64,000 nt of DNA, from contig CANQAV010000006.1 of the NCBI GenBank assembly GCA_947589425.1, positions 1-64,000 on the forward strand, given 5' to 3'. Within the stretch, counting starts at the first letter, position 1; each line of letters starts with the position of its first letter. Positions 40,309-44,662 of the stretch are shown in pieces. This stretch comes from Candidatus Gastranaerophilales bacterium (lineage in GTDB: Bacteria > Cyanobacteriota > Vampirovibrionia > Gastranaerophilales > Gastranaerophilaceae). A program made the position numbers and the translations under genes. Under the pieces are notes generated by a model. That model saw nothing but the letters and a program-made list of their open reading frames with translations, was not told where the DNA came from and made no database searches.

Positions 40309-41847
40309 ATGACAAATAATAAAAAAAGAGTCTTACTTTGTATATTAGACGGATGGGGAATATCAAAAGACAAAGAATATAATGCGGTATATTGTGCAGA
40401 TACACCAAATTATGATAAATTTATAAAAGAAATGCCAAACACAATTCTCCATGCCGACGGCCTTAATGTAGGACTTCCCGAAGGGCAGATGGGTAATTCC
40501 GAAGTGGGACATTTAAATATCGGTGCGGGAAGAATTGTATATCAGGAATTAACAAGAATAAATAAATCAATTGATGAAGGGGATTTCTTTAAAAACAGCG
40601 AATTTTTAAATGCAATAAATCATGTAAAAAACAATAATTCCGCCCTTCATATCTACGGACTTGTTTCTCCGGGCGGTGTTCACAGCTCAATGAAGCATTT
40701 AAAAGCACTTATTAAAATGACATCCGATACGGGTTTAAAAAATGTTTATGTTCACGCATTCTTAGACGGCAGGGACACCCCGCCCAAATCCGCAGATAAA
40801 TATTTAGCTGAAATCGAAGAAGAGCTTAAAAAATATAATCTTCCAAAAATTGCCTCAATAATCGGAAGATACTGGGCAATGGACAGGGATAAACGCTGGG
40901 AAAGAGTTGAAAAAGCGTATAATTGCCTGACTTTAGGAGAAGGAATTAAAGAAGAAGACTCAAACAGTGCAATAAATAATTCATACAACAATAATGTAAC
41001 GGATGAATTTGTTGAGCCTGTTTCAATTTCAAAAAGAAGAATTGATGATAATGATGCGATAATTTTCTTTAACTACAGACCCGACCGTGCAAGAGAAATC
41101 ACCCGTTCGTTTGTCGACGAAAATTTTGAAGGCTTTAATCGCAAAAAAGTAATTAAAAATCTGTATTATGTATGTATGACGCAATATGATGAAACTTTAA
41201 GCACTCCCGTCGCATTTAAACCTCAAACCCTTGTAAATATACTGGGGGATGTTTTGGATGAAAACGGCATTAAACAGTTCAGAACGGCAGAAACCGAAAA
41301 ATATGCTCATATTACGTTTTTCTTTAACGGCGGAGTGGAAAAATCGGGAAAACTTGAAACAAGGGCTCTTGTTAATTCTCCGAAAGTTGCAACCTATGAC
41401 TTAAAACCGCAAATGAGCGCCTATGAAGTTTGCGATAACGTCTTAAAAGCACTTGATGATGAACAATACGGTTTTATTCTCGTAAACTTTGCAAACCCCG
41501 ATATGGTAGGTCATACGGGCGTTATGGAAGCAGCGGTTAAAGCTTGCCATGCCGTTGATGAATGTGTCGGAAAAATTGCCCAAAAAGCACTTGAAAATGA
41601 TGTCACAATGATTATCACGGCAGATCACGGAAATGCCGAATGGATGTTTGACACAAAAACAAACGCTCCTCAAACGGCGCATACAACAAACCCCGTGCCG
41701 TTTATTATTGTATCGGGCGAAAAATATGAACTTAATCAGGAAGGCGCATTGTGTGACATTGCTCCTACAGTGCTTGATATTTTAAATATTGAAAGACCGA
41801 AAGAAATGACTGGAAAATCAATGATAAAAGAAATGGCAAGAAAATAA
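40309..41847 (+). CDS. gpmI: 2,3-bisphosphoglycerate-independent phosphoglycerate mutase
   Basis: A 512-residue Mn-dependent glycolytic enzyme interconverting 3- and 2-phosphoglycerate. The metal site starts LCILDGWG; the catalytic Ser is in GQMGNSEVGHLNIGAGR; then HAFLDGRDTPPKSA, IGRYWAMDRDKRWER, NYRPDRAREITRSF, VNFANPDMVGHTG and TADHGNAEWM. All are intact. A GAGGT site precedes the ATG. It is monocistronic, ended by a strong terminator. Confidence 0.97.
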   Translation: MTNNKKRVLLCILDGWGISKDKEYNAVYCADTPNYDKFIKEMPNTILHADGLNVGLPEGQMGNSEVGHLNIGAGRIVYQELTRINKSIDEGDFFKNSEFLNAINHVKNNNSALHIYGLVSPGGVHSSMKHLKALIKMTSDTGLKNVYVHAFLDGRDTPPKSADKYLAEIEEELKKYNLPKIASIIGRYWAMDRDKRWERVEKAYNCLTLGEGIKEEDSNSAINNSYNNNVTDEFVEPVSISKRRIDDNDAIIFFNYRPDRAREITRSFVDENFEGFNRKKVIKNLYYVCMTQYDETLSTPVAFKPQTLVNILGDVLDENGIKQFRTAETEKYAHITFFFNGGVEKSGKLETRALVNSPKVATYDLKPQMSAYEVCDNVLKALDDEQYGFILVNFANPDMVGHTGVMEAAVKACHAVDECVGKIAQKALENDVTMIITADHGNAEWMFDTKTNAPQTAHTTNPVPFIIVSGEKYELNQEGALCDIAPTVLDILNIERPKEMTGKSMIKEMARK

Positions 41848-41850
41848 TAA

Positions 41851-41877
41851 AAAAGCCCTATAAAAGGGCTTTTTTTA
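41851..41877. terminator. Bidirectional terminator between gpmI and GT8 copy 1
   Basis: Stem AAAAGCCCT / AGGGCTTTT with a five-base loop, A-run on the left and T-run on the right. It can serve both convergent genes; the GT8 stop codon lies in its T-run. Confidence 0.9.
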
Positions 41878-42843
41878 TTTTAGTTTTATTATAAAACGAA
41901 AGCCAAAGCAGGTAATAACCTTGTGTTTATATTTAATATATTCTGATTTTTTACAGCTGAAAATTTTTTCAAAAAAGTTCTTATAGGTAATACCCCCCCC
42001 CTCAATCTTGAGTAGGGTTTTAACATAAATATCTTGCATAATTTCTTCATAAAAAGGAGAAAATCTTGCATAAAAAAAGAAAATATCAGACATCATACAT
42101 TTTATTGAATGCCAAGGCTTTAAACCCCCCGCCCAGTGTATTACAACAGGGTTTTTCAATGCTTCTTTTTTTTCTTCTTCATTTTTATATGTAAAATAAG
42201 GAGCAGCATTAAAGATTGAAAAAATATATTTTATTTTTGGGGCAAAAGTTATATTAAAAGCATCCTGGTCGGGGAATTTTAAAAATTTAGAATATTTATT
42301 TATATTTTCAAATAATTTATCAAAAATTTCTTCTTCTCTCCATTTTTTAAGATTTGCAACCATAACCCCCGAATTAACATATAAAAAATCTGAAGGAAGA
42401 TTTAAATTTTTAATCCAATCGCTTTTATCCAAAAGCGCTACCTGATCAACAACGGCAGCCATATAATTATCTTCTAAATCAATATCCCATAATTTTTTAA
42501 TATCGTCATCAAAAACCAAATCAACATCTAAAATAATTGCCTTATCTATTTTATCATCCAGTTTTGATGTAAAAAGCTTGTTAAAAGCATCTCTTCCTAC
42601 ATGTTCACAAACCGAGTCGGGAATTTTATCAAAAACTTCAAGACTTTTTTCATAAAAATTAATTTCGCAATCATAATTTTTTTTGATAAAATTAATTTTT
42701 CTGACACTTTCAGGACTTAGTCCGCTGTTAATTATATGAAAAGACAGGGCATTTTTTGTGTTTTTCAATATTGAAATCATTGCAACTGAAAGATATTTTG
42801 CATAATCATCATTAATTGAAAAAAATACGTGAATTTTATTCAT
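41875..42843 (-). CDS. GT8 glycosyltransferase copy 1, with in-frame G9 tract
   Basis: A 322-residue family 8 glycosyltransferase, the group of LPS alpha-galactosyl/glucosyltransferases. Nucleotide-sugar binding begins KIHVFFSINDDYAKYLSVAM; the metal motif is DVD in AIILDVDLVFDDDIKKLW; NSGVMVANLKKWR and the catalytic-end motif VIHWAGGLKPWH are present. Residues 282-284 (GGG) are coded by nine consecutive G (41993-42001). After it a 38-residue basic tail follows, ending HKVITCFGFRFIIKLK. One G more stops the protein within a few codons; one fewer gives an unrelated ~35-residue tail. The ATG at 42843 has GAGGT upstream. Sugar and acceptor are unknown. Confidence 0.9.
   Translation of the reverse strand: MNKIHVFFSINDDYAKYLSVAMISILKNTKNALSFHIINSGLSPESVRKINFIKKNYDCEINFYEKSLEVFDKIPDSVCEHVGRDAFNKLFTSKLDDKIDKAIILDVDLVFDDDIKKLWDIDLEDNYMAAVVDQVALLDKSDWIKNLNLPSDFLYVNSGVMVANLKKWREEEIFDKLFENINKYSKFLKFPDQDAFNITFAPKIKYIFSIFNAAPYFTYKNEEEKKEALKNPVVIHWAGGLKPWHSIKCMMSDIFFFYARFSPFYEEIMQDIYVKTLLKIEGGGITYKNFFEKIFSCKKSEYIKYKHKVITCFGFRFIIKLK
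41993..42001 (-). repeat. Homopolymer G9 tract in GT8 copy 1
   Basis: Nine consecutive C on the given strand (nine G in the coding strand), codons for residues 281-284. Runs this long are exceptional in such AT-rich DNA; elsewhere in the window G or C runs reach about six. It is a candidate site for slipped-strand length change. Confidence 0.9.
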
Positions 42844-42871
42844 ATATAACCTCGTACACATATTTTAGATA

Positions 42872-43849
42872 TCAAGCACATTTAAGTTTCATCAAATTTA
42901 AATCGAATTCCAAAAAGCGTAACAACTTTGTGGCGTTTTTTTGTTCTTTTAACATGTTTAATGCTAAAAATTTGCTCAGATAAGCTTCTATGGAAAGACC
43001 CCCCCCTTGAGAATTTGCGCATAATTTTGTGATATTTTCATACAAAATTGATTCATAAAAAGGGGACAATCTTGCATATTTAAAAAATTCATCACACATG
43101 TATACATTTTGATTGTTCCAGGGTTTTTCATGTCCTGCCCAGTGAACAACAACAGCGTTCATACGAATATTTTCTTCTTCTTTTATATCGTCATATCCAA
43201 GATTAGGTGTATAATTAAAAATCTGAGGGAAATATTTAACTTTTGGAGCAAAAGTCATATTAAACGTATCCTGATCCGGAAAACGTAATATTTTAGCATT
43301 TTTGTGTGCAACTTCAAATAATTTTTCCGAGATTGATTCATGTCTCCATTTTTTCAGATTTGCAACCATTACCCCGGAATTAATATAGTCATATTTTTCG
43401 GGCAGTGAATAATATTTTCTCCACTTTTCTTTATCGTTCGAAAAAACTCTATCAATAGAAGCGCCTATATAATTATCGGTGATATCTATATCCCACAATT
43501 TCTTAATATCATCAACAAAAATAATATCAACATCAAGTATAATAGCTTTGTCAATATTTTTGTCAATATTTGATACCAAAAATTTATGGTCAGGCTCATC
43601 CGACACATGCGCATCCGCACATTCTGGAATATCTTTAAAAATATCATTATCAACCCTAAAATAGTCAATTTCAAAATTTTTTATATTCTTAACAGAATTG
43701 ATTTTCCTTATATTCTCGGGACTTAATCCGCTGTTTATAATATGAAAAAAGATGCTGCTGCTTGTGTTTTTTAATATCGAAATCATTGCAACTGAAAGAT
43801 ATTTTGCATAATCATCATTAATTGAAAAAAATACGTGAATTTTATCCAT
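42872..43849 (-). CDS. GT8 glycosyltransferase copy 2, C-terminus shifted at G8 tract
   Basis: As written, a 325-residue family 8 glycosyltransferase, paralogue of its downstream neighbour. Shared: KIHVFFSINDDYAKYLSVAM, AIILDVDIIFVDDIKKLW (DVD), YINSGVMVANLKKWR, FPDQDTFNMTFAP and VVHWAGHEKPWN. GGG at 282-284 is coded by only eight G (42999-43006). After the tract the current frame gives a 41-residue tail unlike copy 1. Adding one G gives a 322-residue product whose 38-residue tail contains HKVVTLFGIRF, matching copy 1, and stops at 42882. So this copy appears to be in the shifted state (or carries a homopolymer miscall). AAGGAG precedes the ATG. Confidence 0.9.
   Translation of the reverse strand: MDKIHVFFSINDDYAKYLSVAMISILKNTSSSIFFHIINSGLSPENIRKINSVKNIKNFEIDYFRVDNDIFKDIPECADAHVSDEPDHKFLVSNIDKNIDKAIILDVDIIFVDDIKKLWDIDITDNYIGASIDRVFSNDKEKWRKYYSLPEKYDYINSGVMVANLKKWRHESISEKLFEVAHKNAKILRFPDQDTFNMTFAPKVKYFPQIFNYTPNLGYDDIKEEENIRMNAVVVHWAGHEKPWNNQNVYMCDEFFKYARLSPFYESILYENITKLCANSQGGGLSIEAYLSKFLALNMLKEQKNATKLLRFLEFDLNLMKLKCA
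42999..43006 (-). repeat. Homopolymer G8 tract in GT8 copy 2
   Basis: Eight consecutive C on the given strand, codons for residues 282-284, exactly the position of the G9 run in copy 1. One base short of the frame that restores the shared C-terminus. Confidence 0.9.
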
Positions 43850-43864
43850 AATAACTCCTTATGC

Positions 43865-44662
43865 TTATTTTACAAAAAAAGTACGGATATACAAAAAAAT
43901 TAATGATAAAATTAAGGCAAAAATTGAAATTACGCTTGCCACAGGCAGTCCAAAAACAAAAGAAACACTGTCTATTCTGATACTTTCTACAAATATTCTT
44001 ACAATTGAATATAAAATTATATAAATTAAAAACACCGTTCCGGTTTTTAGATTTTTTACTTTTAAATACAAAAATAAAAGAATTGCAAAAATTATTAAAT
44101 CAAAAATGCTTTCATACAAAAAAGCCGGGTGAAAAAAATCAACTTCTTTAAATTCGGGGGGTCTATACTCCGGGTCTACATAAAGTTTAATAAAAAAATT
44201 AGTCGGATAACCAAATGCCTCTTGATTAAAAAAGTTTCCCCACCTTCCGATTGCCTGTGAAAGAGAAAAAGCGGGTGCAATTGCATCAAGCAATTGCAAG
44301 GGTTTTATTATCTTTTTGTTTAAAAATAAAAAAATTCCCGCAATTCCAAAAATTATCGCCCCCCAGATTGAAATACCGCCATGGTTTAACATAATGATTT
44401 CTTGGGGGTATTTTAAATAATAATCAATATTCCCTAAAACATAAAAAAATCTTGCTCCCAATATTGAAAAAACAACAACAGGCGGAATAAAGTCAATAAA
44501 ATAATTTGCGCAATCTTTCGAATATTTATCTTTCAAAATAAAATATGTTACACAAACACCGAGCGCAATAGCAAATGCCAGTATCAAACCGTAAAGACGA
44601 ATTGAGATATTGCCGATTTGAAATAATACTGGTTGAAGTTTTGGATATAAAACTATATGCAT
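43865..44662 (-). CDS. lgt: Prolipoprotein diacylglyceryl transferase
   Basis: A 265-residue inner-membrane enzyme adding diacylglycerol to the lipobox cysteine of prolipoproteins. About seven transmembrane helices. The family signature GRWGNFFNQEAFG is at ~139-151, preceded by MLNHGGISIWGA (essential region) and IRLYGLILAFAIALG near the N-terminus; FHPAFLYESIFDL is also present. Its start lies 5 bases after the stop of a predicted lipoprotein gene, so substrate and enzyme are co-transcribed. No strong Shine-Dalgarno. Confidence 0.96.
   Translation of the reverse strand: MHIVLYPKLQPVLFQIGNISIRLYGLILAFAIALGVCVTYFILKDKYSKDCANYFIDFIPPVVVFSILGARFFYVLGNIDYYLKYPQEIIMLNHGGISIWGAIIFGIAGIFLFLNKKIIKPLQLLDAIAPAFSLSQAIGRWGNFFNQEAFGYPTNFFIKLYVDPEYRPPEFKEVDFFHPAFLYESIFDLIIFAILLFLYLKVKNLKTGTVFLIYIILYSIVRIFVESIRIDSVSFVFGLPVASVISIFALILSLIFLYIRTFFVK

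Follow-up and report, generated by a model that had tools for sequence, protein, structure and literature searches.

Poly-G tracts in two tandem family 8 glycosyltransferase genes of a bacterium that is probably a non-photosynthetic relative of cyanobacteria: candidate contingency loci within a genome-wide set

Why do two neighbouring glycosyltransferase genes carry a long, uninterrupted run of G at the same codon, and does the length of this run decide which protein is made? In the window, by which we mean the whole 64 kb stretch of DNA analysed, both genes lie in tandem on the minus strand. GT8_2 (41875..42861, 328 aa, with a probable true start at Met7, position 42843) and its paralogue GT8_1 (42872..43849, 325 aa in the present frame) are 51% identical and both match the Pfam family Glyco_transf_8, GT8_2 with E 1.4e-48 over residues 11-253 and GT8_1 with E 2.3e-43. 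From the Pfam match and the alignment, the catalytic domain of GT8_2 was placed at 42103..42831 (minus strand), including DVD at residues 112-114, the DXD motif that is invariant in both copies, and HWAG at residues 242-245. The best solved relative of GT8_2 is LgtC (1g9r/1ga8, E 9e-26). Against the equivalog NF011718 for LPS 3-alpha-galactosyltransferase, the pair scored 79 and 84 bits, below the cut-off of 461.

The first-pass annotation had reported a G9 run at 41993-42001 and a G8 run at 42999-43006 on the coding strand, and both could be confirmed, appearing as C9 and C8 in the letters of the plus strand. It had also held that G/C runs elsewhere reach about six; indeed no other G/C run longer than 6 is present in the window, for which an order-3 Markov model of its sequence predicts about 0.24 runs of at least 8 over both strands of 64 kb. 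The G9 tract reads GAG GGG GGG GGT (Glu-Gly-Gly-Gly) and the G8 tract CAA GGG GGG GGT, each coding for Gly-Gly-Gly at the homologous position of the two proteins. The numbering 282-284 given to these residues is correct for GT8_1 and applies to GT8_2 only if translation starts at Met7, the residues being 288-290 when counted from the first ATG. Their placement just after HWAG was loosely worded: the tract lies downstream of this motif, but about 40 residues away.

The position of the tract suggests what a change of its length would do. In GT8_2, an AlphaFold model from an 8-sequence alignment (pLDDT 82.6 overall, with a confident GT8 fold) is folded to approximately residue 287, loses confidence at the tract (287-290) and then continues into a tail with pLDDT of at most 52 that sits apart from the folded domain. 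Since the tract marks the boundary between domain and tail, slippage should exchange the tail or abolish it while sparing the catalytic domain. The tail of GT8_2 (41875..41992, minus strand), read in the present G9 frame and ending in NFFEKIFSCKKSEYIKYKHKVITCFGFRFIIKLK, is a conserved basic and aromatic module. At G8, GT8_1 reads an unrelated, non-conserved tail ending in NLMKLKCA, and the matching tail, ending in SLSEQIFSIKHVKRTKKRHKVVTLFGIRFKFDET, is found one frame off (42882..42998, minus strand) with 45% identity to the GT8_2 tail, a call that depends on a match of 31 residues. The neighbouring copies are thus in different phases although both open reading frames look intact, a difference that had escaped the earlier description of a tandem pair with tracts at the same codon. 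As assembled, GT8_2 has its conserved tail switched on and GT8_1 carries an alternative one. The three frames that follow the tract give the conserved tail, a different tail of similar length, or a stop after few residues, so that with a tract near the 3' end the products differ only in their C-terminus. Over the 38 codons of the tail dN/dS is 0.63, a stretch too short to decide on selection. The C-terminus of LgtC is basic and aromatic, and by analogy the tail may serve in docking to the membrane or the acceptor. The same kind of module is found at the end of one tract-free GT8 protein (HKLFFAGCVGNRYVLTLFGIKFKFRIK) and of several other glycan enzymes of the genome.

As an observation of its own, the module follows the pattern ..FSxKn..[KH]KVxTxFGIKxKFK and forms the C-terminus or the N-terminus of glycan enzymes that are not related to one another (GT8, a TPP enzyme, an SDR and others). 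Its sites are L044, L050, L057, L061 and 41875-41992 of the window, with a tandem duplicate in one L057 protein, and no Pfam family matched over it in any scanned protein.

The two tracts belong to a set that extends over the genome (1.87 Mb in 32 contigs, 99.8% complete), which is represented by a single assembly; the length given for any one tract may be wrong by a base. Runs of at least 8 G number 36, comprising 13 G8, 16 G9, 5 G10 and 2 G11, while runs of exactly G7 occur only six times. The lengths are therefore two-humped, dipping at 7 and rising again at 8-9, unlike a random tail, which would fall with length. An A directly precedes 33 of the 34 distinct tracts (GA in 24/34) and a T follows in 25/34; a more extended motif common to the tracts of this genome was rejected, leaving only these flanks, (G)A before and T after. 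Most of the tract genes that could be classified are glycan or surface genes: GT8, GT9, GT90, GT2, DUF4422, alpha-2,8-polysialyltransferase-like, polysaccharide deacetylase, AlgX-like, FkbM methyltransferase, SDR, TPP enzymes and a polysaccharide pyruvyltransferase with an F420-hydrogenase-like iron-sulfur part. Two further assignments were made by eye: two tracts are followed immediately by a gene pair for a PEP-mutase-like and a phosphonopyruvate-decarboxylase-like protein, and two tracts share a region with a flagellin gene. Where a tract is intergenic or close to a start codon, as several are, switching of the reading frame is not an applicable mechanism.

Two of these loci deserve separate mention. 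At L049 (contig C5:78852-86077), tandem proteins of 1142 residues, for which no Pfam match was found, show signal-peptide-like starts and glycine-rich repeats, and each gene carries a G11 one base before its ATG, making switching of the expression level possible for this pair. At L050 (contig C6:77900-82500), a tract-bearing sulfotransferase-like gene adjoins the PEP-mutase-like and phosphonopyruvate-decarboxylase-like genes, as assigned by eye, and a phase-variable phosphonate decoration of surface glycans is a possible outcome.

For the tracts that lie within genes, their length sets the frame, and both states occur. At several of them the open frames upstream and downstream are out of register, and the offsets needed to rejoin them are of both signs. 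Across three genomes, 12/33 in-ORF runs of at least 8 are frame-broken, compared to 24/417 runs of 4-7 (Fisher p 1.2e-6). On the sequences compared, homologous pairs are decisive for the frame states: tract length alone accounts for the frame difference in four pairs of paralogues, one of them the GT8 pair of the window, and in one pair of genes from different species. A GT90 pair is broken at G8 and intact at G9 with C-terminal parts 89% identical, an SDR pair is intact at G8 and broken at G9, and two adjacent pyruvyltransferase-like genes, named by eye as they had no Pfam match, are both broken, at G10 and G8, in opposite directions. A polysialyltransferase-like gene has an unbroken frame here but a broken one in the congener G024, with 91% identity after the tract. 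The parts downstream of the tract yield dN/dS of 0.26 for GT90, 0.17 for the pyruvyltransferase-like genes, in which both copies are broken, and 0.24 for the polysialyltransferase-like gene; three frame-broken bodies are thus still under purifying selection. This selection argues for reversible switching and not for decay.

Four other explanations have to be weighed against switching. The run could simply encode Gly-Gly-Gly as a preferred hinge that links the catalytic domain to the tail, with a fixed length that has no meaning, as three glycines stand at the boundary in both copies and both reading frames are open. We consider this unlikely, since GGG makes up just 11% of the glycine codons, yet both genes use two consecutive GGG followed by GGT, and since GT8_1 at its present length reads a non-conserved tail; furthermore, other genes are broken by similar tracts at unrelated positions, and runs of 8-9 outnumber runs of 7. 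Marginally less probable still is obligate recoding, in which transcriptional slippage or -1 ribosomal frameshifting at an unchanging tract would yield a fixed mixture of products. G-runs are slippery, and in the sister genome G065 an identical one-base shift, at a run of exactly G10, is required by all 23 pilin-like leader genes, the pattern that fixed recoding would produce. In the genome studied here, however, offsets occur in both directions and several genes need no shift to be in frame.

Homopolymer errors in sequencing or assembly, to which long G-runs are prone, might render the frame breaks artefactual if the real lengths differ. Errors of this kind could not have produced 36 long tracts in surface genes here and left most congeners with 0-2 runs of at least 9; none of the 8 in-ORF G6 runs of the genome is frame-broken and the other genes of the window are full length, leaving this account very improbable. 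We give the least credence to the idea that the broken genes are decaying pseudogenes whose G-runs mutated by happenstance: although about one third of the classified in-ORF tracts in the three genomes are frame-broken, the compared pairs show no other disruption, and past the break the three best pairs are still 76-91% identical as proteins, with dN/dS between 0.17 and 0.26.

The G tracts are probably simple-sequence contingency loci that switch by slipped-strand mispairing, as the first-pass annotation had suggested for the GT8 pair; the genome-wide set, the bimodal lengths, the pairs in different frames and the purifying selection past the break all speak for this reading. We infer slippage in living cells from the sequence record. 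During replication, a run would gain or lose one base by slipped-strand mispairing, and cells of one population would consequently differ in reading frame. In the GT8 pair, slippage after a complete catalytic domain would switch between forms with the tail and forms with no tail or another tail, which probably alters membrane or acceptor docking and thereby the sugar added to a surface glycan. Of the proposed surface-sugar switch, the contingency tract stands, and the expected effect has to be restated as a change of tail rather than plain on/off. The pair is one element in the genome's repertoire of 36 tracts. Lengths of 8-9 fall towards the lower limit of the range known to switch, which counts against this interpretation. 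Loss of mismatch repair as the cause of slippage was rejected, MutS, the one component looked at, being found in 28/28 genomes of the genus; the presence of this protein likewise counts against the interpretation, since a repair defect would raise slippage. Contig ends near tracts were set aside as a sign of mixed lengths, since gene copies that occur repeatedly account for at least part of them.

The pair sits between gpmI (phosphoglycerate mutase, 40309..41847, plus strand) as conserved left and lgt (prolipoprotein diacylglyceryl transferase, 43865..44662, minus strand) as conserved right neighbour. In 22 of the 26 congeners with a gpmI match, gpmI and lgt are adjacent without GT8 genes, and no close GT8 homologue was found in any congener. 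By gene order, the pair is a species-specific insertion present only in this genome among the congeners compared. A scan of a genome-contig collection for copies from the same or a near species gave only distant GT8 genes. Regarding the lineage, TIGR02388 (rpoC2) matched a 1285-residue open frame with 1249 bits over model positions 2-1226, while 6/14 control genomes also exceed the cut-off of this model; the separate cyanobacterial-type rpoC2 favours Melainabacteria/Gastranaerophilales, and the organism is probably one of the non-photosynthetic Cyanobacteriota.

Within the genus, 4 of 28 species have 15-27 runs of at least 9 G and the others 0-2. On a LepA tree the four tract-rich species need one state change, which is weakly supported (51/81), and none of 500 shuffles gave a number as low. 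An order-wide survey found up to 176 such runs in genomes of this family, counts that mix at least two phenomena, and 0-6 in 17 genomes of five other families. That all long G-runs of the family are one phenomenon was rejected, because the runs of G065 are fixed in length, lie between two C and go with another conserved motif.

In this genome of the sister genus g2 (e.g. L091-L120, L166-L185), which has 176 runs of at least 9 in total, 50 of 52 sampled runs of at least 7 are exactly G10. Nearly all have a C before and after the run and are followed by a motif close to C[AG]NNYTNNARGCTYC, and other genomes of its genus mostly show G10 at the same motif. On the large contigs listed, run direction is uniform on C1 and C2 (all minus) and C4 (all plus), and changes from plus to minus along C3. 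The 23 type-IV-pilin-like (FTLAE) genes (e.g. L099, L102, L105, L176) have a Shine-Dalgarno sequence, an ATG and a leader of 21-32 nt before the G10, and in all of them with G10 the body needs the same one-base shift to come into frame with the leader. This points to obligate recoding, to switching with off as the default, or to a G11 that was systematically undercalled. At other sites of G065, another left half precedes the same pilin bodies, which looks like recombination at the G10. In G140 and G246, from another genus of the family (L186-L204), runs of G9-G11 occur soon after the starts of long open reading frames, many of which are out of frame.

Homopolymer phase variation is best known from host-adapted pathogens. 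In the open-access literature we found no paper on it in Melainabacteria/Gastranaerophilales or in metagenome-assembled genomes, in line with the earlier statement that no description in the Melainabacteria lineage was known. New here are the lineage, the genome-wide scale and a putatively switched tail that is a module common to glycan enzymes. If the reading is true, a whole repertoire in an uncultured, probably non-photosynthetic lineage of Cyanobacteriota would mean that the strategy evolved again, and would suggest strong immune or phage pressure on the surface glycans of this lineage. Gene calls in such genomes may hide frame-switched genes, as GT8_1 illustrates by looking intact while reading a non-conserved tail. 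More tentatively, and with rather more doubt than conviction, we propose that this one family holds among the largest homopolymer-switch repertoires of any bacteria, with tens to more than 150 tracts of at least 9 G per genome in many species, independent of the proteobacterial and campylobacterial phasomes, and that GT8 slippage toggles a docking tail and not activity, resulting in a graded re-wiring of the surface glycan.

Poly-G switching is an established mechanism in Neisseria, Helicobacter and Campylobacter. In the latter two, phasomes occur in AT-rich genomes of 1.6-2 Mb, where tens of G-runs cluster in genes for surface glycans and in those of the flagellar region, and the present genome resembles them in its AT-rich composition, its size and its tens of runs in such genes, but belongs to a different phylum, has MutS and shows an A before 33/34 tracts. 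Among gut commensals, Bifidobacterium breve carries two pilus loci for which ON/OFF replication slippage at an intragenic G-tract was shown experimentally (PMC9187656); that organism is Gram-positive and the loci encode pili, in contrast to the genome-wide glycan repertoire that we infer here from sequence. Closest by family is lgtC of Neisseria, a GT8 alpha-1,4-galactosyltransferase and best solved relative with an uninterrupted coding poly-G, which is phase-variable and switches LOS structure (PMC3526765), with tracts from G8 to G16 in gonococcal strains (PMC5320596). The similarity to the GT8 proteins of the window amounts to just about 94 bits, and the likeness is one of family and poly-G; in the window, the tract lies where the catalytic domain stops and would alter the tail. 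In arrangement, the locus resembles in particular the C-terminal phase variation described in Helicobacter canadensis (PMC2823697) and gonococcus (PMC5320596), where a poly-G in the last part of the gene gives different C-termini in its three frames while most of the protein is made. In H. canadensis the ends affected are mostly few residues long and the tracts G10 or longer (PMC2823697), whereas here tracts of G8-G9 would control a tail of about 40 residues with a module that recurs on other glycan enzymes.
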